Shown piece after piece: positions 18,288 through 27,792 of a DNA stretch of 64,000 nt; position 1 is the first letter of the stretch; each line of letters begins with the position of its first letter. The position numbers were made by a program, and so were the translations under genes. The notes under the pieces are model-generated. The model was not told the DNA's origin, did no database searches, and saw only the letters and a program-made list of their open reading frames with translations. Source of the stretch: Bdellovibrio svalbardensis (GTDB taxonomy: Bacteria; Bdellovibrionota; Bdellovibrionia; Bdellovibrionales; Bdellovibrionaceae); the NCBI RefSeq assembly GCF_029531655.1, contig NZ_JANRMI010000003.1:1-64000 (forward strand). Reading direction: 5' to 3'.

Positions 18288-18316
18288 AGCCTAGGGACCT
18301 CGAACCATGTTGTCAA
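18288..18316 (-). promoter_or_regulatory. Promoter of the pyrB-carA-carB operon
   Basis: TTGACA (18311-18316) and TAGGCT (18288-18293) are spaced by 17 bases on the minus strand, overlapping the end of lepB. An AAGG ribosome-binding site follows directly, so the leader would be very short. I see no attenuator or PyrR-type structure. Confidence 0.5.
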
Positions 18317-18990
18317 TGCACGGGAAGAAAAACTCTGTTCCAACGCACCGAAGGATAACGCTCGCCGCCCCATTTTTGCTGCCAGTCCAAAGATAACCAA
18401 ATTAAAACAACTTTGCCCACCACTTGGGAGGCTGGAACTGTGCCCCAGTACCGCGAGTCGTCACTGGCATCGCGATTATCCCCTAACAGGAACACTTCAC
18501 CGGGCGGCACGATGATTGGACCAAAATCTTTGTCCTCATCATGTTTTTGAAAAATCACACGCCAGCCAAAGTCTTTGTACTGTTCTTGAAAGACGTCAAA
18601 AAGCTCGTGATTAGGATTGTCCACTTTCGTGTCTTGAAGCTTTTCGTATTGGAACGCCTCTTCATTCAATATCAAACGACCTTGCTTAATTTGCACGCGG
18701 TCACCAGGTAAGCCGACGACCCGCTTGACGTAATTGATCTCTGGCTGATTGGGATAACTGAAGACCACCAAATCGCCCCGCGAAGGAAAACTGGTATCTA
18801 ATTTTTTTTGCGTAAACGGAAGCTGCAAACCATAAGCTATGCGAGACGAGAAGATGAAATCTCCAGGCTTCAAGGTCGGCTGCATAGAACCCGTGGGAAC
18901 CTTATAGGCTGTGATTAAAAAACTGCGCACAAACAGTGCAAAAAGCACAGCCACCAATAATGTTAGAAAATATTCCCGCCAACGAGTCAT
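18313..18990 (-). CDS. lepB: Signal peptidase I (first of three in the window)
   Basis: Membrane Ser/Lys protease that removes signal peptides from exported proteins. One N-terminal transmembrane helix (about 8-27) is followed by the serine box VPTGSMQPTLKPGD and the lysine box YVKRVVGLPGDRV, then the C-terminal box GDNRDASDDSRYWG. At 225 residues it is a compact member. Two more paralogues lie at 26273-27792. Confidence 0.95.
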   Translation of the reverse strand: MTRWREYFLTLLVAVLFALFVRSFLITAYKVPTGSMQPTLKPGDFIFSSRIAYGLQLPFTQKKLDTSFPSRGDLVVFSYPNQPEINYVKRVVGLPGDRVQIKQGRLILNEEAFQYEKLQDTKVDNPNHELFDVFQEQYKDFGWRVIFQKHDEDKDFGPIIVPPGEVFLLGDNRDASDDSRYWGTVPASQVVGKVVLIWLSLDWQQKWGGERYPSVRWNRVFLPVH

Positions 18991-19041
18991 TAACGAAATC
19001 TTAACTAACTTTTAGGGGGATTGAGTAGACATTCTTTAGGC

Positions 19042-19070
19042 TTGGACACTGGTCTAATAAAACATATTCA
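19042..19070 (+). promoter_or_regulatory. Possible promoter of the halogenase cluster
   Basis: TTGGAC (19042-19047) and TATTCA (19065-19070) are spaced by 17 bases on the plus strand in the lepB/halogenase gap. It would give a leader of about 170 bases before the halogenase, long enough to include the small reading frame at 19115-19237. The boxes are only partial matches. Confidence 0.35.
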
Positions 19071-19114
19071 TATTTACAATGCGAACCTTCTAGACCCGAT
19101 CGTGCAAGAAATCC

Positions 19115-19237
19115 ATGGCTGAGTGGCCTCCAAATGGCTATTCCCAGCCCTCCACCGCCCTTCCTGCCAAGAGCAGGAAATTGCTTTGCAATCTGGGGCA
19201 TTCAATAGCAAATTGCTTAAAAAAATCCCATACCTAA
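19115..19237 (+). CDS. Candidate 40-residue leader peptide upstream of the halogenase
   Basis: An open frame of 40 codons starts at ATG 19115 and ends 11 bases before the halogenase start. It begins MAEWPPNGYSQPS, has one Trp, one Tyr and two Cys, and a basic C-terminus. There is no good ribosome-binding site, and the codon choice (AGC AGG, many CCC) is not clearly that of neighbours. It may be a leader peptide, a substrate of the halogenase, or chance. I list it because it sits between the likely promoter and the halogenase in the same direction. Confidence 0.22.
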   Translation: MAEWPPNGYSQPSTALPAKSRKLLCNLGHSIANCLKKSHT

Positions 19238-19248
19238 ATGGATAGAAT

Positions 19249-20862
19249 ATGACTTCGACAGCAGACCATATCGACAGTGCTTTTGACCTTAGCTATTTAG
19301 ACTTTCCCAAATGCCCAAAAACTGAAATTAAGACCATCGGCATCCTGGGCGGGGGCACCGCAGGCTACCTAACAGCTTTGGCACTTAAAAAACTTCACCC
19401 AGGCATTAAAACTTCCGTTATCGAGTCCAGCAAAATCCCGGTTATCGGCGTGGGTGAATCAACAACGACTGAGATCGTTCCGTTCCTGCACAGAACTTTG
19501 GGTATTGATCCACAAACTTTCTTCCATGAAGTTCAACCGACTTTGAAATTGGGAATTCGCTTCGACTGGGGTTGTCCCAAAGATGAAAACGGAGATTACC
19601 ACTTCAATTTCAATTTCTTCGCCGGTCACCAGCAGGAGTCTTATTACTACGAAGACTCCATCAACAATGCGAATTGGGCCTCGGTTTTGATGGACGCAAA
19701 GAAGATTCCGGTGGTTCGCGAAAAAGACGGGTCTTTGACATCTCTTTTGCCGAGCATCCCGTTTTCATACCATATCGACAACAAAAACCTGATTCGCTTC
19801 CTGAATAAAACCGTAAAGCAAAGAGGCATCGAGATCCTGGATGCTGAAGTTGTGAAAGTGAACTTGGACGACAAAGAGTTTGTTTCGTCTTTGGAAACAG
19901 ACGATGGCCAAAAGCTTTCTTTCGATCTTTATATCGACTGCTCTGGCTTCCGCTCAAAGATCTTGGGTCAGGCTTTAAAGACGGAATTTATTCCCTTCAA
20001 TTCAACTTTGATCAACAACCGCGCTTTGACCTTCGATACACCTAACAATAACGTGATCGCCCCTTATACGGCCTGCACGACGATGAATAACGGCTGGTGC
20101 TGGACTATTCCGATGAGAGGTGAAAACCATCATGGCTATGTGCATTCAACTCTTTACTGTGACGAAGCGACTGCTTTAGCTGAAGCACGCGCGAAGTTCG
20201 GTCACTTTGAAAACTACAAAATGGTAGAGTTCCGATCAGGACGTCACGCTCAAGCTTGGAATAAAAATGTTTTTGCAATCGGCAATGCTTACGCCTTCGT
20301 TGAGCCCTTAGAGTCGACAGCCATCCAAACAGCAGTCCACAGCATCATGACTATGTGTAAGTTGATGCCGAACAATCACTCTGATTACGCTTCCATCGCG
20401 GGTATCAATCAGGAGATCGCAGCAACTTGGGACACCTTCCGCTGGTTCCTGGGAATTCACTACAAATACAACAAGCAACTCGATACGCCGTACTGGAAGT
20501 GGTGCAATGAGAATACAAATATCGGTGATGCTCAGATGGTTGTGGACTTGTTTAATCAACGTCCACCACTCAGCGCGAGCAACTTCGGTACAAACTCTCC
20601 TTATACCGCTCTCGAGGCTCTGGTTTTCAATAGCTATAGCTATGACACCCTTTTGTATGGCCAGAAAGTTCTGAGCAAACCGCCCGTCAAGCCTGCGATG
20701 TCAAAAGAAGAGTACTTGAGCAGAACTTACTCTTATCAAGAACTCACGAAGAAGGCTCTCACCTTGCATGAACTTTTCGAGGGTGATCATCTTTTCGAAG
20801 ATGAATTGCTCGAACAACTCTTTGACGATCCAGACACTTGGATTGTTGAGACCGAAGCTTAA
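19249..20862 (+). CDS. Flavin-dependent tryptophan-type halogenase
   Basis: FADH2-dependent halogenase of the PrnA/RebH family, 537 residues. Visible elements are the Rossmann loop GILGGGTAGY (31-40), K100 in the position of the lysine that forms the halogenating species (PTLKLGIRF), the diagnostic WxWxIP motif (WCWTIP, 283-288) and the Glu of EPLEST (E355). All catalytic residues are present, so it should be active; whether the substrate is free Trp, another aromatic or a peptide cannot be told. It opens a plus-strand cluster with an antiporter, a 35-aa peptide, an oxygenase and an ABC exporter. The ribosome-binding site is weak. Confidence 0.93.
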   Translation: MTSTADHIDSAFDLSYLDFPKCPKTEIKTIGILGGGTAGYLTALALKKLHPGIKTSVIESSKIPVIGVGESTTTEIVPFLHRTLGIDPQTFFHEVQPTLKLGIRFDWGCPKDENGDYHFNFNFFAGHQQESYYYEDSINNANWASVLMDAKKIPVVREKDGSLTSLLPSIPFSYHIDNKNLIRFLNKTVKQRGIEILDAEVVKVNLDDKEFVSSLETDDGQKLSFDLYIDCSGFRSKILGQALKTEFIPFNSTLINNRALTFDTPNNNVIAPYTACTTMNNGWCWTIPMRGENHHGYVHSTLYCDEATALAEARAKFGHFENYKMVEFRSGRHAQAWNKNVFAIGNAYAFVEPLESTAIQTAVHSIMTMCKLMPNNHSDYASIAGINQEIAATWDTFRWFLGIHYKYNKQLDTPYWKWCNENTNIGDAQMVVDLFNQRPPLSASNFGTNSPYTALEALVFNSYSYDTLLYGQKVLSKPPVKPAMSKEEYLSRTYSYQELTKKALTLHELFEGDHLFEDELLEQLFDDPDTWIVETEA

Positions 20863-20879
20863 TACAGAGACGACTAGGT

Positions 20880-21764
20880 ATGATGACTTTTCCCGTCTAC
20901 GTTCTTTTGGGCCTCATTCTTGGGCCCAGCGGACTTCATCTTTCAGCTCCTCCGGCGTTGCTATTTAAAATCTGCGCGGCCGGATTCCTTTTTGTTTCGG
21001 GCATGGAGTGCTCGTTCCAAGGAATGGGCAGACACCTGAAAGTCGTCTTGGGAATCAGTCTGGGTTCTTTTGTAATCCCTTTGGCTTTAGGCCTCTTCGT
21101 TGCTCCCCTGTTTCAGTTCGAGGACTTTGTTAGCAGCTGGGTCTTTGCCACTGCCTTGTCTGTTTCTGCACTTCCCGTGATCATTCAAATCCTGCGCGAA
21201 AGAAGCCTGCTCAACCATCTCTTGGGACACATCATTATTGCGGCCGCGAGTCTTTGCGATATCGCAGCTTGGGCGTGCTTTATGTTCGTACTACCTCAAG
21301 AGCAGCAAGCCACATGGATCTGGAGTCACTTCCCCGTTTTATTTTTCTTCCTTGGCCTCTTATGGAAATTGTTTTTGCCCCTCCCGGGCTTGTTCTTAAG
21401 AAATATTGAAATTGCAAGCCGATGGATTTTTGCACCGATCTTCTTTATCGGAATCGGGCTGCAGCTCAATATTTGGAAGTCTTTCAATCTTTGGCTGGCC
21501 TTAGGCACCATTGCGCTGGCTTTCGCTGGCAAAATAATCGGCGGACTTTTGGCTGCGAAGCTTTTAAAACTTCCGAAGCAAGAAGCCTGGATCATTTCCG
21601 TGGCCCTCAGTGCTCGCGGAGCGATGGAAGTTCTTTTAGCGCAATTGGCTTTCCATAGCGGCTTGATCAGCGAAATGTGGTTCACGATCCTGGTGATCAT
21701 GGCCATCATCACCTCCCTCACCGCAGGGCCTTGGCTGCGCTATTTGCAAAAGAAGCCGGCATAG
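20880..21764 (+). CDS. Shortened CPA2-type cation/proton antiporter
   Basis: Membrane protein of the KefB/NhaS (CPA2) antiporter family, about 295 residues against roughly 380-400 usual. It begins inside the second helix motif (VYVLLGLILGPSGLHL), so the first helix is missing. About ten hydrophobic segments remain. The usual Asp pair of the ion site reads CD here (SLCDIAAWAC). The start is either ATG at 20880 or 20883; only a short AGG precedes them. It follows the halogenase by 17 bases, so the two are probably one transcript. It could export a halide, a cation or the product; this is speculation. Confidence 0.8.
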   Translation: MMTFPVYVLLGLILGPSGLHLSAPPALLFKICAAGFLFVSGMECSFQGMGRHLKVVLGISLGSFVIPLALGLFVAPLFQFEDFVSSWVFATALSVSALPVIIQILRERSLLNHLLGHIIIAAASLCDIAAWACFMFVLPQEQQATWIWSHFPVLFFFLGLLWKLFLPLPGLFLRNIEIASRWIFAPIFFIGIGLQLNIWKSFNLWLALGTIALAFAGKIIGGLLAAKLLKLPKQEAWIISVALSARGAMEVLLAQLAFHSGLISEMWFTILVIMAIITSLTAGPWLRYLQKKPA

Positions 21765-21792
21765 CTTTCTCTCATTATTAAATCCAAGAATG

Positions 21793-21812
21793 GAGTCTTT
21801 TAAATAAGACTC
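21793..21812 (+). terminator. Hairpin after the antiporter gene
   Basis: GAGTCTT / AAGACTC form a 7-bp stem with a 6-base loop 28 bases after the antiporter stop. There is no strong T-tract. The following stretch to 21944 has two GGTCCGCC direct repeats and a CGGGA-ATGA-TCCCG hairpin (21914-21927 region) just before the ribosome-binding site of the peptide gene. Confidence 0.35.
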
Positions 21813-21944
21813 TGCGCCCTCTAACAGACGCCATCTCCAATAAAAAGGCAATTGAGGCCGTTTTTCGTGCTTTTCTCCGCGGTCCGCCCCTTGCTCTAGA
21901 GGTCCGCCAACACGGGAATGATCCCGCCAACAAGGAGAAAAACC

Positions 21945-22052
21945 ATGATCTATACATACGAAGAAAGAAAAGGCTCAAACGCCAACGGTCGTCGCGACCT
22001 AGACAAAGAGGAAATCCCTCAAGCTCTTCAAGAACTTCTGAAGAAAAAATAA
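21945..22052 (+). CDS. 35-residue peptide gene, candidate modified-peptide precursor
   Basis: ATG at 21945 is preceded by a strong AAGGAG at optimal spacing and runs 35 codons to TAA. The peptide begins MIYTYEERKGSNANGRRDL and ends in a Gln/Leu helix and three lysines. It has two Tyr (YxY) and no Trp or Cys. A second in-frame ATG at 21918 exists but lacks a ribosome-binding site. A strong terminator-like hairpin follows directly, the arrangement seen where a peptide is made in excess over downstream enzymes. Those enzymes are a 2OG/Fe(II) oxygenase and an ABC exporter. A substrate role is inferred; no match to a known peptide family is recognised. Confidence 0.6.
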   Translation: MIYTYEERKGSNANGRRDLDKEEIPQALQELLKKK

Positions 22053-22057
22053 CCTCA

Positions 22058-22090
22058 AAGGACGAGCTGCCCTAGCTCGTCCTTCTTCTT
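22058..22090 (+). terminator. Terminator/attenuator between peptide and oxygenase genes
   Basis: A perfect 11-bp stem (AAGGACGAGCT / AGCTCGTCCTT) with a 5-base loop and the run CTTCTT follows 5 bases after the peptide stop. The oxygenase ribosome-binding site begins immediately after. It should terminate part of the transcripts and let some through. Confidence 0.8.
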
Positions 22091-22101
22091 AAGGATTTAC
22101 A

Positions 22102-22731
22102 ATGTATCTCCAACTCTCTCCTAAATTTAGAAAAGAAAATCAACTCCACCTAAAAACAGACACTTTAGTTCATGAGGCTCCTTGGCAACATTTCATCTTG
22201 GATAATGTCTTTGCATTAAATGACTTTATTAATCTGCAAGAGAGAATTCTTTCTCAAAATCATGAATTCAAAATTGGCAGTGAAGATCCGGAGCAGATTC
22301 AACTGCGTGCTTTGCCCGATATGGCTTTAGCAGAAGCTCTTTTGTCTGAAGAATTTCAGGGCTTGCTGGAGAAGGTTTCAGGCTCGGCCCTTTCAATTTA
22401 TAAATCGGGAGCTTTGCAATTGCGCCGCATGACGCCTGACTCACCTGCATTTCCCCCGCATTATGACTTCATCGATCACCGTACGCTCGTCATGCTTTAT
22501 TATCTGGGTCGAGATTGGACACCCGCGAATGGTGGGGAACTTTTACTTCACAAGGAAGAGGGGGCCGCAATCGATGGACCCGATACAAAGTGGATATCAC
22601 CGATAGCAAATCGAATGGTTCTATTTTTTTGCGATGAAACGAACTGGCACAGTGTCCGCCAAGTCATTAATTGGAATCGATATTTGGTTTTCGCCGAATG
22701 GAGCGTTGTCTCTAATGAGAGGATTTTATGA
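22102..22731 (+). CDS. 2-oxoglutarate/Fe(II)-dependent oxygenase (prolyl-4-hydroxylase-like)
   Basis: Non-haem iron oxygenase of the 2OG-FeII_Oxy_3 type, 209 residues. The iron ligands are H120 and D122 (PPHYDF) and H183 (NWHSV); R193 (WNRYLVFAEW) should bind 2-oxoglutarate. The strand motif GGELLLH (144-150) fits the fold. Related enzymes hydroxylate proteins, peptides or amino acids. It starts with AAGGA 7 bases upstream, right behind the hairpin at 22058, and its stop overlaps the ABC transporter start (ATGA), so the two are translationally coupled. Confidence 0.88.
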   Translation: MYLQLSPKFRKENQLHLKTDTLVHEAPWQHFILDNVFALNDFINLQERILSQNHEFKIGSEDPEQIQLRALPDMALAEALLSEEFQGLLEKVSGSALSIYKSGALQLRRMTPDSPAFPPHYDFIDHRTLVMLYYLGRDWTPANGGELLLHKEEGAAIDGPDTKWISPIANRMVLFFCDETNWHSVRQVINWNRYLVFAEWSVVSNERIL

Positions 22732-24071
22732 TCAAGATTGTTTTTAATCTTTTAAATAAAAAATTTATTTTTACTATGTTTGCGCTGATCACTATTCAAC
22801 AAATACTCGTCGCAATGGGTACGGCTTGTTTAAGCCTGAGTGGACAAAACTTGAATAAGCCTACCCACTTTGTTTTATTTATTACCGGATTTCTTATTTT
22901 GTCGATTCTTCCCCACTTCGTAACTATTTTTCTGCGGAAGACAGAGATGCAGGGCTATTTCCAAGCTTACTATTCATTTATTGAACTACGCCTTCTCAAA
23001 TTTGCAGGATCTGCGAAGATTTGGCCTAACCATCAACAAAAGGAAAAGTATCAAACAGCTATTGGACCTGAGGCCGAGAACTATCTAACGGCCATCGCTT
23101 TTTCGATCTTTGATATCTTCCTATTCTTACTGACTATTGCCCTCAACATCTTAGCGATCTCTTTGGTGGTCGATTCCCGCTTCATCCTGGCGTTCGCTGT
23201 CTCTGCGATAGTCTCCTACTGGGTCTTTAGTAGACTTTCATCGTCGATTGATCAGCTGATTGAACGTGAACAAGAAAACAAAATGAGATTCCTCAGCTAT
23301 CTTTTGAAGTCATGGGATAATGTTTTCCTCAAGAACTCTCAGATCAATCAAAAATATATTAGCAAGCTCGAAGGCCACTTTGAACAAACCTACGAGCTTA
23401 TAGGCAAGGCAAACTTCCAAACCGAGTTGCTTGTCTTAATTCTAACCATCGCTTCTTGTCTGCCCGTTTTCGTCTTAATTATCTATCTTACCGTTACTCA
23501 TCTTCAAGATGCTTCGTATTTGGCAGGCCTCATGGTCACTATTCCCAAACAGATCAGTATTCTTTCCAACTATCGCTCCGTCTTTCAGCAGGTCACAAAT
23601 TTAAATACCTTTACGACTCGTTTTAGGAGCTACTGGGAGAGTTCTCATCTGACCGAATCAGACCTTTCGGGAAGAATTAAGCCTGAGAAAATTCGCTTGA
23701 ACGGACAAGCCTTCGACTCGGTTGAACAATTGATCAAAGATCTAGATACAACAAAAAAGGGACGCATACTAATCACTGGAAACAATGGAGCTGGAAAGTC
23801 CACGTTACTAGTTCACCTCAACGCTTTCCTTCCGGAATCCTTTTATCTGCCCTCCAGCCCATCGCTGGAGATTGGTGATCAATTGGGAAGTGAGTCGACG
23901 GGAGAACGCATTTTAAAACATTTGGAGTTTGTTGCAAACAATCCGACTCCAGTTCTTTTGCTGGATGAGTGGGATGCGAATTTAGATAACACCAATAAGG
24001 AGTTGATAAATGAACGAATCGATCAGCTTGCAAGACAGAGCTTGGTGCTTGAAGTTCGCCATCGAAGTTAA
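22728..24071 (+). CDS. ABC exporter with a miniature ATPase domain
   Basis: A 447-residue fused membrane/ATPase protein. About six hydrophobic segments lie in residues 12-260, followed by an ATPase domain of only about 100 residues. That domain has Walker A GNNGAGKST (351-359), a signature-like STGER (390-394), Walker B VLLLDE (409-414), a D-loop NLD and a terminal His (H445). Walker A lysine and signature are 35 residues apart against about 100 in normal ABC ATPases, so most of the helical subdomain is missing, and the Q-loop Gln reads Ser (YLPSSPS). It resembles a stripped-down peptide exporter. Coupled to the oxygenase by a 4-base overlap. Confidence 0.78.
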   Translation: MIKIVFNLLNKKFIFTMFALITIQQILVAMGTACLSLSGQNLNKPTHFVLFITGFLILSILPHFVTIFLRKTEMQGYFQAYYSFIELRLLKFAGSAKIWPNHQQKEKYQTAIGPEAENYLTAIAFSIFDIFLFLLTIALNILAISLVVDSRFILAFAVSAIVSYWVFSRLSSSIDQLIEREQENKMRFLSYLLKSWDNVFLKNSQINQKYISKLEGHFEQTYELIGKANFQTELLVLILTIASCLPVFVLIIYLTVTHLQDASYLAGLMVTIPKQISILSNYRSVFQQVTNLNTFTTRFRSYWESSHLTESDLSGRIKPEKIRLNGQAFDSVEQLIKDLDTTKKGRILITGNNGAGKSTLLVHLNAFLPESFYLPSSPSLEIGDQLGSESTGERILKHLEFVANNPTPVLLLDEWDANLDNTNKELINERIDQLARQSLVLEVRHRS

Positions 24072-24142
24072 ATATGGCTCCTCAGGCTTTAAAGTTCTAC
24101 ATGGTGCCAACTTCTAACTGAACAGGCTGCCGCGAAAACATC

Positions 24143-24212
24143 GGTATCATTAAAAGACCTTATAGGCCTATTTTAAGCCAATTTTAGTTCTTTAGTATCA
24201 TTTTGTGATACC
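24143..24212. promoter_or_regulatory. Repeated TATCA half-sites before the regulator operon
   Basis: GGTATCAT at 24143 recurs as AGTATCAT at 24194 and, inverted, as GTGATACC at 24205-24212; the last two form the palindrome GTATCA-TTTTG-TGATAC (24195-24211). They lie upstream of the 49-aa peptide and the XRE-type regulator and are plausible binding sites for it (autoregulation), or for control of the ABC gene end. Confidence 0.45.
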
Positions 24213-24303
24213 ATAAAGACAGCCATTGAGAACCTGTTTGAGTTCGGGCAGCTTTAGGAAAGAGCAAGGGACTGATCCCGAGCCTTCTTAAGGGGAATCG
24301 AAA

Positions 24304-24453
24304 ATGCAAACGCTGACAGGACTTATGATGAATCTGTTCCAACAACTTATGAGCGGCCGTAACAACTTGAAATCGCATTCTTTCCACAACCTCCACAGCA
24401 TCGGCCGCGGCGTGGTCATCGTTGTTGAAGAATACGATTACTCGGCTCACTAA
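24304..24453 (+). CDS. 49-residue peptide gene upstream of the XRE regulator
   Basis: ATG at 24304 with AAGGGG 8 bases upstream opens 49 codons that end 14 bases before the regulator. The peptide has an amphipathic, Met/Leu-rich start (LTGLMMNLFQQLM), a middle with three His, then a hydrophobic VVIVVEEYDYSAH end. Its codons resemble the neighbours. It could be a signal or ligand peptide for the regulator, a second substrate of the cluster, or a small membrane-active peptide. No known family is recognised. Confidence 0.5.
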   Translation: MQTLTGLMMNLFQQLMSGRNNLKSHSFHNLHSIGRGVVIVVEEYDYSAH

Positions 24454-24467
24454 GAAGGAACGCAAAA

Positions 24468-25271
24468 ATGAACGAATTCAAAATTCAACAACTCAAAAGT
24501 GTCATCAAAGATCTTTTAAAGAAGAAAAAGATGACCTATGAAGATGTCGCCAATGAACTGAACTGTTCAGTTCCCACTGTCAAAAGAATCTTAGGCGATG
24601 AAGAACTCACCCTCTCTCGATTGCTTGAGTTATGCGATATTTTAGAAGTGAATCTGACCGATCTGGAAACGTTGACAAAAACGACCTCTGACAAAGTGGA
24701 ACGATTCACCGAAGAACAGCAAATCTTTCTGGCGAAGAACAAAAACTTCTTAGCTTATCTTGTGCACCTTTTTGACGAGACTCCGGAGCAAATCGCTGAG
24801 AAGTACAAACTCACGCAAAAATCCACGGACAAATATCTGTTGGGCTTAGAGAAGAACAACCTCATCAAAGTAAATGCGAAACTTAAGGTAAAACCCGCCT
24901 TCAAGCAGCTACCATCCTTGGAGAATGGCCCGTTGGCGAAAGCCTATTACGAAGGCTTCATTCAAAACTCGGCAAATTTCTTTATTCAGAATATTTCAGA
25001 ACGCCTTTATTCTCCAAATGATGGAAAAGAAACACCCAAGGGCTTTTCAGTGCAGAATATCGTGGTGACAGAAGAATCCTATAAAGCTTTTATCACAGAA
25101 AATTTAAAGAGCTTTGAAAGCTTCATCAAGCTTGCCAGCTACGAAGAAAAATCAAAACCCAAAGAGCAACTTAAGTCGGCGGTCGTTCTGCAGGCATTCA
25201 CGATTGTGGAACAAGATTACAAAGGGCTGGAAATTCTGACCAAGGCGCTTGGTGAGATTATCAATATTTGA
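24468..25271 (+). CDS. XRE-type helix-turn-helix transcriptional regulator
   Basis: A 267-residue regulator. Residues about 1-65 form a Cro/C1-type helix-turn-helix (MTYEDVANELNCSVPTVKRILGDEELTLSRLLELCDILEVNLTDL). The region after it has a second HTH-like segment (ETPEQIAEKYKLTQKSTDKYLLGLEKNNLI), and the C-terminal 120 residues form an unknown helical domain that may sense a ligand. AAGGAA precedes the ATG. It is probably co-transcribed with the 49-aa peptide and may control the halogenase/exporter cluster; that is inference from position and the TATCA repeats. Confidence 0.82.
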   Translation: MNEFKIQQLKSVIKDLLKKKKMTYEDVANELNCSVPTVKRILGDEELTLSRLLELCDILEVNLTDLETLTKTTSDKVERFTEEQQIFLAKNKNFLAYLVHLFDETPEQIAEKYKLTQKSTDKYLLGLEKNNLIKVNAKLKVKPAFKQLPSLENGPLAKAYYEGFIQNSANFFIQNISERLYSPNDGKETPKGFSVQNIVVTEESYKAFITENLKSFESFIKLASYEEKSKPKEQLKSAVVLQAFTIVEQDYKGLEILTKALGEIINI

Positions 25272-25272
25272 A

Positions 25273-25301
25273 GGCAGCAAGCGAAGGCTGCTGCCCTTTT
25301 T
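25273..25301 (+). terminator. Terminator of the regulator gene
   Basis: GGCAGC(A)AGC-GAAG-GCTGCTGCC forms a 9-bp stem with one bulge and a tetraloop, followed by CTTTTT. It lies directly after the XRE stop codon and closes the accessory island. Confidence 0.85.
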
Positions 25302-25308
25302 GAATTTT

Positions 25309-26085
25309 CTAGAATTCAAACTTAAATCTGATCATGAAGGCCCCAGTCACTCCCCCAATTCCCGTTGCCACGGCATCCTGAGAGTCGACTGTGTGCTTGT
25401 CGCGATGATGACTGTCGTAGACCTCTTTTAAAATTCCAGCGATAATTCCAGAGGCAACACCAATCCAAAACGATTTGTTTTTACTCACGTCAAAACCATA
25501 GTAGGCAATGGCGGCACTGGAAGAGGCGATAAGACTTCCCACAATGGCATGAAGAACTTTGTCATTTTGATCTGGATAGATGCCTTTGGCCAATAGACCT
25601 GAGGCGAGAGTGCCGGCGGCGACAGCAACAAAAACCTCGCCCCCTTCTTCGAGATTGAACTCTCGGGAATCTGCCAACGAAGAATTTAACTGAAGAATCT
25701 GCAAATCCAAAAGAATGTTATACTTATCCAGGCTTGCAACAAATTGGACCGTTTCAGGGCGGCCTGATATATCCTCTCGAGTTTCGCACTGAAAGTTCAA
25801 AAGTGTGATCTCACCATCTGTTTTTGATTCTACAGATTTAGAGTATCTATAGTTGTCCATGCTCGGCTCACACACCTTTTTAAAAAGGGCAGTGGCAGTT
25901 TTCACGGATCCTGGAATTTTACGGTCTGAAATTTTAATTTCTCCTGAACTCATCATCAGGGATCGACTCAACAAGTTTGCTTTCTGAAGATATGCGGGGC
26001 TTGGAGACGATACCATCTCCCCGGCCCATGAGCTCGTTGTGAAGGCCGTCAAAAAAAGAACTACAAGAATTTTTGATATAGTCAC
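25309..26085 (-). CDS. Unknown exported protein with C-terminal membrane helices
   Basis: The likely start is GTG at 26083-26085, which has AAAGGA upstream, giving about 258 residues with a clean signal peptide ending near SSWA. The central part is a soluble domain with two Cys. The C-terminal 110 residues contain three or four hydrophobic segments and an ordered set of polar residues (DKVLHAIVG, ILKEVYDSHHRDKHTVDSQDAVATGIGG) of the kind seen in small VanZ-like or DUF2279-like envelope proteins. Function unknown. It converges on the XRE gene. Confidence 0.65.
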   Translation of the reverse strand: MTISKILVVLFLTAFTTSSWAGEMVSSPSPAYLQKANLLSRSLMMSSGEIKISDRKIPGSVKTATALFKKVCEPSMDNYRYSKSVESKTDGEITLLNFQCETREDISGRPETVQFVASLDKYNILLDLQILQLNSSLADSREFNLEEGGEVFVAVAAGTLASGLLAKGIYPDQNDKVLHAIVGSLIASSSAAIAYYGFDVSKNKSFWIGVASGIIAGILKEVYDSHHRDKHTVDSQDAVATGIGGVTGAFMIRFKFEF

Positions 26086-26272
26086 AACAATCCTTTCAAG
26101 GGCCTTTCTTAACAAGAAAGACGTAAGAAGGATGGTTTATAGCATAGTATAGCTCACATCCGACTCTGAACTTGGAGGACTTAGCGAAGTTTCATGAGTG
26201 TCTGACTATTTGACAGTGCGTACTCGCAGCAGCACCAATAGCGCAGTTGCGACACCAAAAGTGTGTCCGTAC

Positions 26273-26986
26273 CTATTTGAGTTTTTGGAAGAAGCGGTTC
26301 CAGCGGAGTTGTGATGGATCGCATACGAAGGTCATGGATGGCAAAGTGGCATCGCACGAAAGCCAGATTAGCCAAGCTTTACCCACGATATAATCGTTTT
26401 TAACGAAACCCCAGTAGCGTGAATCACTCGATTGATCGCGGTTATCACCCATAAAAAAGAAGTGACCATTGGGCACCTTGTAAACTTTAGGAGCAATGCC
26501 TTCCACCACTTCGGGAGTCATAAAGCGCACGACGTGGGGATTTCCATCTATAGATTCATTGTAATAGGCAAAGCCGGACTCAGCATTGGTATAGGCAAGC
26601 GGAGACAAATCCCACTTCATACCATTTACGGTGATATGACCGTCTTGTACAACAACCTCATCCCCCGGAAGTCCGATCAAGCGCTTGATGTAATAGACAT
26701 CGGGATTTTCTGGATATTTAAATACAACGATCTCCCCGCGTTCGGGCTTAGACCACTGGAACATCCACTTATCACTGAAGGGAAAATGCAGACCAAATGC
26801 AAACTTCTTAACAAGGATATGATCGTGAACAAGAAGATTGGGAATCATACTTCCCGAAGGGATCACAAAGGGCTCATACAGAGCCCAACGCACACCCAGC
26901 ACCAGAAAAATAGGAAAAAGGAACGTTAGAATCGCTTGATTCCACGTTCCCTTCAAATTTTTTTGAGGTGTTGGTTGGTCCATCAA
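26273..26986 (-). CDS. lepB: Signal peptidase I (third copy)
   Basis: 237-residue signal peptidase I. One transmembrane helix (about 17-35) precedes the serine box IPSGSMIPNLLVHDH, the lysine box YYIKRLIGLPGDEV and the GDNRDQSSDSRYWG box; all catalytic residues are present. It follows a second lepB by 2 bases, and both follow lepA, so lepA-lepB-lepB is one operon. Divergence between the copies suggests different substrate ranges. Confidence 0.94.
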   Translation of the reverse strand: MMDQPTPQKNLKGTWNQAILTFLFPIFLVLGVRWALYEPFVIPSGSMIPNLLVHDHILVKKFAFGLHFPFSDKWMFQWSKPERGEIVVFKYPENPDVYYIKRLIGLPGDEVVVQDGHITVNGMKWDLSPLAYTNAESGFAYYNESIDGNPHVVRFMTPEVVEGIAPKVYKVPNGHFFFMGDNRDQSSDSRYWGFVKNDYIVGKAWLIWLSCDATLPSMTFVCDPSQLRWNRFFQKLK

Positions 26987-26988
26987 AT

Positions 26989-27792
26989 CTAGTTAACTTG
27001 ATGGAAGAAGCGACTCCAACGGATTGTCGTTGGATTGCAAAGGAAAGGAAGTGCTGGAATAGTTTCTTCACAGCTTAGCCATACGAACATCGCACGACCT
27101 AAAATGTTTTGCTTAGGCATAAAACCCCACACACGGCTGTCTGAAGAGTTCATGCGGTTATCACCCATCACAAACAAATGATCTTCAGGAACAGTCACCG
27201 GGCCGAAAGTTTCATAGATGTCGCCCTTACGAAGAAGGATCGAGTGATCTTTGCCTTTTTCCTCGCCTTTGCCTGGAGGCAAAGCTTCGGTGAATTCAAC
27301 GTAATTGTTTTTACCGTCGTTGATGTTGCCATCACGAGTGAAGTCCGCGTCTCTCAACCAAGCGAAATCGTCGAGGTTGGCAGGCACTTTCTTTTCAACA
27401 GGCTTGTCGTTGATATAAAGAGTTCCGTTTTCATAGTAAATCTTATCGCCAGATTCACCGACGATACGCTTGATGAAGAAGGTGCTCATGTCCTTAGGGT
27501 ATTTGAAGACAATCACTTCGCCGCGTTTTGGTTCGTTGAATTTCACCAACCAATTTTCAGAGAATGGTGCACGCAAACCGTAAGTCAGTTTGTTCACGAA
27601 GATATGATCGTGAATCAACAACGAAGGAAGCATAGATCCAGATGGGATCACGTAAGCTTCAACAAAGCCCCAACGAATGAACAATGCAATGAACACCGCT
27701 AGAAAAAGAGATCCCCAACCTTCAGTCCAAAAATGCTTATGACGCCAGTCCCATGGTGGTGGTTTCGGCCCACTATTCTTATTGCTACTCAT
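26989..27792 (-). CDS. lepB: Signal peptidase I (second copy)
   Basis: 267-residue signal peptidase I with the serine box IPSGSMLPSLLIHDH, lysine box FFIKRIVGESGDKI and GDNRMNSSDSRVWG. Compared with the other two copies it has an extra segment of about 40 charged residues in the middle (around 130-175). It begins 4 bases after lepA, the classical lepA-lepB arrangement, and may be the housekeeping enzyme. Confidence 0.95.
   Translation of the reverse strand: MSSNKNSGPKPPPWDWRHKHFWTEGWGSLFLAVFIALFIRWGFVEAYVIPSGSMLPSLLIHDHIFVNKLTYGLRAPFSENWLVKFNEPKRGEVIVFKYPKDMSTFFIKRIVGESGDKIYYENGTLYINDKPVEKKVPANLDDFAWLRDADFTRDGNINDGKNNYVEFTEALPPGKGEEKGKDHSILLRKGDIYETFGPVTVPEDHLFVMGDNRMNSSDSRVWGFMPKQNILGRAMFVWLSCEETIPALPFLCNPTTIRWSRFFHQVN

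Follow-up and report, generated by a model that had tools for sequence, protein, structure and literature searches.

A peptide, 2OG-Fe(II) oxygenase and compact ABC exporter cassette beside an orphan halogenase gene in Bdellovibrio svalbardensis

Genes and features of the locus

The window, which is the whole stretch of 64,000 nucleotides of Bdellovibrio svalbardensis DNA that was analyzed, contains five consecutive genes on the plus strand, and all five open reading frames reported by an earlier note were confirmed. The first encodes a halogenase of 537 aa (19249-20862; PF04820 Trp_halogenase, 8e-129, 430.8 bits) and the second a cation:proton antiporter of 294 aa (20880-21764; PF00999 Na_H_Exchanger, 1e-36). 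After a gap of 180 bp they are followed by a peptide ORF of 35 codons (21945-22052), whose strong ribosome-binding site, AAGGAG ahead of the ATG, was found as described. The encoded peptide, MIYTYEERKGSNANGRRDLDKEEIPQALQELLKKK, is the probable substrate and is treated here as a candidate. The motifs YTYEE and EEYDY reported for the 35-aa peptide and for a second, 49-aa peptide are present, and neither peptide contains Trp.

A terminator-like hairpin lies on the plus strand between the peptide and oxygenase genes (22053-22095), where the earlier note had expected a terminator. It is formed by the arms GGACGAGCT and AGCTCGTCC, followed by a T-rich tail, and has a folding energy of -18.6 kcal/mol, compared to -6.7 +/- 2.5 for shuffled sequences. 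The 2OG-Fe(II) oxygenase gene downstream of it (22102-22731, 209 aa; PF13640 2OG-FeII_Oxy_3, 9e-14) encodes a protein with a predicted prolyl-hydroxylase fold. Its stop codon overlaps the start codon of a half-size ABC exporter gene (22728-24071, 447 aa) in the sequence ATGA, as had been noted, and the exporter shows a weak match to ABC_tran and a compact nucleotide-binding domain. The 49-aa ORF (24304-24453, plus strand) and the gene of a 267-aa HTH regulator (24468-25271), which comes next after it, are partners, and the ORF is located outside the cassette described below, as are the halogenase and the antiporter.

The gene order around this region is conserved as lepA-lepB3-lepB2-slot-lepB1-pyrB-carA. 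Three signal-peptidase paralogues occur between pyrB and lepA in the window (18313-27792), and the gap between the first two of them is the variable slot, the cargo of which differs among genomes. The slot measures 7.3 kb in the window, where no convincing direct repeats were found at the ends of the insert. In G005 it is about 3 kb long, in G010, G011, and G012 it covers some 0.6-0.7 kb, and in G004 and G008 less than 80 bp. In G005 (L186) this same chromosomal slot holds the 49-aa ORF and the HTH gene, which are 47 and 67% identical to those of the window, respectively, and neither the halogenase nor the cassette. As the slot content varies in this way, the most likely reading is that the five genes did not arrive together but came separately into a single variable slot. 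The 49-aa peptide had been considered a possible second substrate; this was rejected since the ORF pairs with the downstream HTH gene in G005. The HTH gene has further homologues in G015 and G020, and in both cases a weak match to the 49-aa ORF lies nearby.

Recurrence of the peptide, oxygenase and exporter genes

The peptide, oxygenase, and ABC genes are a real unit. Adjacent oxygenase and ABC genes with the peptide directly upstream were identified in six other genomes of the genus (G018, G022, G012, G011, G021, and G010). In G004 the peptide ORF precedes the ABC gene with collinear oxygenase fragments between them (tblastn, 2e-12), which indicates a cassette that was once whole and has since decayed; a natural pair of peptide and ABC without oxygenase was therefore rejected for this genome. 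The eight cassettes are distributed over seven chromosomal sites, and even within the same eno-polA region, which G011 and G021 share, the cassette sits at two different points. Between G022 and G012, the oxygenase and the ABC diverge more rapidly than the genes on either side. Profile scans with the oxygenase and the ABC yielded no relatives in IMG/VR, so carriage of the cassette by viruses was rejected. Of the peptide-modification cluster proposed earlier, the peptide, oxygenase, and ABC thus stand as a unit that recurs in relatives, whereas the halogenase and the antiporter are not members.

The window peptide is homologous to the 45-49-aa ORFs upstream of the oxygenase and ABC genes in 7 genomes (E = 4e-7), based on a leave-one-out profile that was built without the window peptide and then used to find it, which avoids circularity. 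These ORFs lie immediately 5' of the cassette genes with a strong ribosome-binding site, while the window peptide has a shorter N-terminus and misses their N-terminal helix. The alignment is invariant at five positions, namely the start Met, a Gly, a Leu, and an Ile-Pro pair, and the variable part is a middle region rich in Gly, Asn, and Arg (KGSNANGRRD in the window). Neither a hypervariable core nor a shared cleavage motif or double-glycine site is visible among the aligned peptides, and searches of Pfam and NCBIfam returned chance-level matches only. Among 369 genomes of the phylum, the peptide profile matched 8 above chance, with one copy each and always upstream of the cassette, and two further matches are borderline (E 0.0015 and 0.005). 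The earlier note had proposed to check whether the small peptide co-occurs and is conserved in place, and it does so directly upstream of the oxygenase and ABC genes or their remnant in 8 of 8 genomes. The peptide is accordingly a candidate precursor in the sense used for RiPP loci, a short encoded peptide conserved in place beside a modifying enzyme. The peptide codons of G022 and G012 differ by 6 synonymous and 1 non-synonymous changes, indicating purifying selection.

A terminator-like hairpin 3' of the peptide gene occurs in seven of the eight loci, with equivalents of the window hairpin in L056, L057, L058, L060, L061, and L065 and none in L059; the structure is kept and the sequence differs. 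No C39 or other protease domain was detected in the cassette with Pfam. Many RiPP loci rely on external proteases.

The residues H120, D122, H183, and R193, which correspond to the HxD...H iron triad and the 2OG-binding Arg, are invariant in the 7 aligned oxygenases. The top matches of the oxygenase profile in the PDB are OGFOD1, HIF and other prolyl hydroxylases, one match being annotated merely as a putative hydroxylase. The predicted structure (pLDDT 76) matches OGFOD1 with a Z of 18.4, followed by PolD (18.0), Tpa1 (17.5), PasI (17.1), and PHD2 (about 15.7). A prolyl-hydroxylase fold is the probable reading of the profile and the structural model, and prolyl hydroxylation is the predicted activity. 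Branches in the oxygenase tree were too long to be resolved.

In the exporter, Walker A was located at residue 351, the signature at 390, the DE pair at 413-414, and the last His at 445 of 447. Only 39 residues separate Walker A from the signature, and the chain stops two residues past the H-loop His, compared to about 100 residues and a further ~40, respectively, in MsbA-type domains. This shortening of the ATPase domain accounts for the weak Pfam score of the ABC. The structural model (pLDDT 80) is that of a type IV exporter, with the six-helix fold, Walker A, signature, Walker B, and H-loop all recognizable. The compact family was found in 24 of 369 genomes of the phylum. Its members closest to the window ABC are L063 and L064, which are orphan ABCs without peptide or oxygenase, so that parts may have been exchanged in the past. 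The orphan ABC of L064 (L064:4600-6424) looks like a mobile unit, with direct repeats of 116 bp (87%) and inverted repeats of 38 bp on its flanks. Distant relatives of the compact ABC occur in other phyla, in L174 (Xenorhabdus lircayensis), L173 (Parachlamydiaceae), L175, and L176, and no recognized modifying enzyme was found beside these four.

Elsewhere in the phylum, the exporter family is accompanied by different enzymes. Eight loci outside the genus cassette (L066, L068, L069, L070, L132, L134, L135, and L137) carry an aKG-HExxH peptide hydroxylase (TIGR04267), all eight above the NCBIfam cut-off, and in each of them a separate peptide of 40-56 aa is encoded upstream, in most cases with MIAFD as its last residues. 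This peptide family is confined to the HExxH-ABC loci. A 365-aa protein is also encoded in four of them (L066, L070, L135, and L137). In four further loci the compact ABC is adjoined by a borosin-like TP_methylase (L062, L133, L136, and L139), with an added radical SAM protein in L133 and L136; L062 also carries two 2OG oxygenases and a HExxH-like protein. Nearly all loci of the exporter family with a partner enzyme have their own short peptide upstream. A Pro-helix motif comparable to that of the cassette peptides is found close to the C-terminus in the peptides of three methylase loci (L062, L133, and L136), a pattern that was picked post hoc.

A candidate pathway and its alternatives

The segment 21945-24071 is probably a self-contained, horizontally mobile RiPP-like cassette whose peptide would be hydroxylated and exported. 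The strongest indirect evidence for its RiPP-like character is the coupling of the same exporter family elsewhere to peptide-modifying enzymes and their own peptides. The hairpin after the peptide gene suggests that the short peptide would be produced in excess of the enzymes. The 2OG-Fe(II) oxygenase, acting as a peptide-directed enzyme, would then hydroxylate it, and the ABC, presumably as a homodimer with compact ATPase domains, would secrete the product either whole or trimmed by a housekeeping protease. The exporter family would be general in this role, as the peptide-modifying enzymes coupled to it vary across the phylum, and most of these loci have a separate short peptide upstream. The leading candidate for the hydroxylated residue is Pro25, the invariant Pro of the I-P-x-x-I/L-x-x-L motif, because the enzyme resembles prolyl hydroxylases and the residue does not vary; this assignment is tentative.

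A variant of this explanation, and compatible with it, places the modified residue in the variable middle (KGSNANGRRD), with the C-terminal I-P-x-x-I/L-x-x-L helix binding the enzyme or the exporter. The Pro motif also occurs in the peptides of L133 and L136, which are methylase and radical SAM loci of the same exporter family without a 2OG oxygenase, so that the Pro is possibly a recognition element rather than the modified residue, and the middle is the region that varies. However, the closest relatives of the oxygenase in sequence and fold are mostly prolyl hydroxylases and the Pro is invariant throughout the peptide family, which leaves the variant somewhat unlikely.

It is also conceivable that the peptide is a small protein with a helper, immunity, or regulatory function, that the oxygenase hydroxylates another protein, and that the ABC exports something else. 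The best fold matches of the oxygenase act on ribosomal or cellular proteins (OGFOD1 and Tpa1 both on ribosomal protein uS12), the peptide shows no obvious hypervariable core, and some genomes have the ABC but no oxygenase beside it (L063 and L064). The position of the peptide as first gene of the operon with an attenuating hairpin, its tight coupling to the cassette, and the recurrence at other loci of a short peptide with a peptide-modifying enzyme and the same exporter argue against this, and we regard it as improbable.

In the halogenase, the motifs GGGTAG, WCWTIP, TLKLG with its Lys, and FVEPLEST are intact when aligned to solved halogenases, so that the WxWxIP motif and the active-site Lys and Glu described by the earlier note are all kept. 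With these residues and a PF04820 score above the cut-off, it is a tryptophan-type flavin halogenase. A search of 60 genomes (its own, genus, family, and order) recovered orthologues in 13 other genomes at 50-91% identity, and up to ~9 kb was compared on either side of each, or less at contig ends. The antiporter, peptide, oxygenase, and ABC of the window were near none of the 13, which was the outcome that the earlier note had named as evidence against its cluster. The orthologues are instead spread over eight other neighbourhoods, and only the loci L019-L022 on the one hand and L023-L025 on the other have neighbours in common. Those shared neighbourhoods aside, no small ORF conserved in position was found beside the halogenase in the 13 loci. 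A Trp-bearing substrate peptide was rejected, as the upstream ORFs in L019-L022 represent one shared neighbourhood and the window peptides contain no Trp; the locus thus differs from RiPP halogenase clusters of the MibH/SrpI type, which have a Trp-containing precursor alongside.

The cassette loci show the same separation, since none of the 7 other cassette genomes has a halogenase beside the cassette. Among 24 genomes of the genus, the halogenase occurred in 11, the cassette in 8, and both in 5, compared to 3.7 expected (Fisher p = 0.39). Given this non-significant co-occurrence and the lack of conservation at the YTY residues among the homologous peptides, the proposed halogenation of the peptide is unsupported. 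The antiporter had been described as shortened. Homologues with open frames of ~281-310 aa in many relatives are the norm for the genus, so truncation was rejected, and homologues of the same length across the genus sit away from both the halogenase and the cassette. The row of five is two or three unrelated things side by side, and the halogenase and the antiporter adjoin the cassette by chance. A single five-gene cluster yielding a halogenated and hydroxylated peptide, suggested by consecutive genes on one strand and by a nearest solved halogenase relative (MibH, 5uao) that acts on a RiPP also bearing hydroxyproline, is very improbable and largely refuted by the neighbourhood data, together with the co-occurrence, the unconserved Tyr residues of a peptide without Trp, and the 180 bp before the peptide gene.

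On a broader level, the loci may represent mobile minimal peptide-export cassettes, in which one family of stripped-ATPase exporters serves interchangeable chemistries (prolyl-hydroxylase-fold, HExxH, borosin-like methylase, and radical SAM) on unrelated peptides of 35-56 aa, with a hydroxyproline peptide under purifying selection in the genus of the window. We put this forward tentatively, as a class that may be undescribed. No description of the three-gene cassette was found in the literature searched, and the open-access part of it returned nothing on Bdellovibrio borosins or on Bdellovibrio 2-oxoglutarate/RiPP precursor peptides. Peptide natural products are poorly charted in the predatory bacteria of this phylum. 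The cassette comprises three genes that change sites together, one of them for a conserved peptide, and its small size would allow expression in full. The DEWDANLD signature of the exporter offers a search handle for more peptide loci. The shortened ATPase domain raises the question of the minimum that an ABC exporter needs, and recognizing the halogenase as an orphan gene removes a false lead.

Comparison with known systems

The solved structure nearest to the window halogenase is MibH, the peptide tryptophan halogenase of NAI-107, with 3.6e-117 compared to 2e-56 for the next. The halogenase may well act on some peptide, as judged from this relationship, with no tie to the 35-aa peptide. In contrast to MibH and other RiPP tryptophan halogenases, it is an orphan without attached peptide or lanthipeptide genes in any relative.

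The window oxygenase is like OGFOD1, Tpa1, and PHD2/EGLN in fold (Z 15-18), profile, and conserved Fe and 2OG residues, but it is only 14-20% identical to them, and their targets are a ribosomal protein or HIF rather than a peptide encoded in the same operon. Among named 2OG families of peptide maturation, the nearest is YhhC (NF041706), a 2OG-Fe(II) oxygenase of cyclophane peptides, with E values of 7e-7 for the window and 4e-10 for L057. These matches score 29.1 and 39.6 bits, respectively, below the equivalog cut-off of 150 bits, and the window cassette differs in having no radical SAM cyclophane maturase. No publication that mentions YhhC by name, or a 2OG prolyl hydroxylase acting in a RiPP locus, was found in the open-access literature searched.

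The exporter resembles type IV (MsbA/TAP-like) exporters in overall fold (Z about 12) and motifs, and differs from them in its 447 aa, its much shortened ATPase domain, and the lack of a C39 peptidase domain. It is likewise distinct from the PCATs, as it has no N-terminal C39 domain and the peptides have no shared GG site. Split borosin loci with a TP_methylase share the exporter family with the window in four cases, whereas the window cassette carries no methylase. Hydroxylation in RiPP pathways is an established role of HExxH enzymes (PMC12636437), and the window proteins scanned gave no match to TIGR04267. While the window enzyme differs from them in its predicted double-stranded beta-helix prolyl-hydroxylase fold and is linked to another peptide, aKG-HExxH RiPP loci (TIGR04267; PflC/PosC, PMC12636437) likewise combine a short peptide with an alpha-ketoglutarate-dependent peptide hydroxylase, and those of the same phylum have their exporter family in common with the window cassette.
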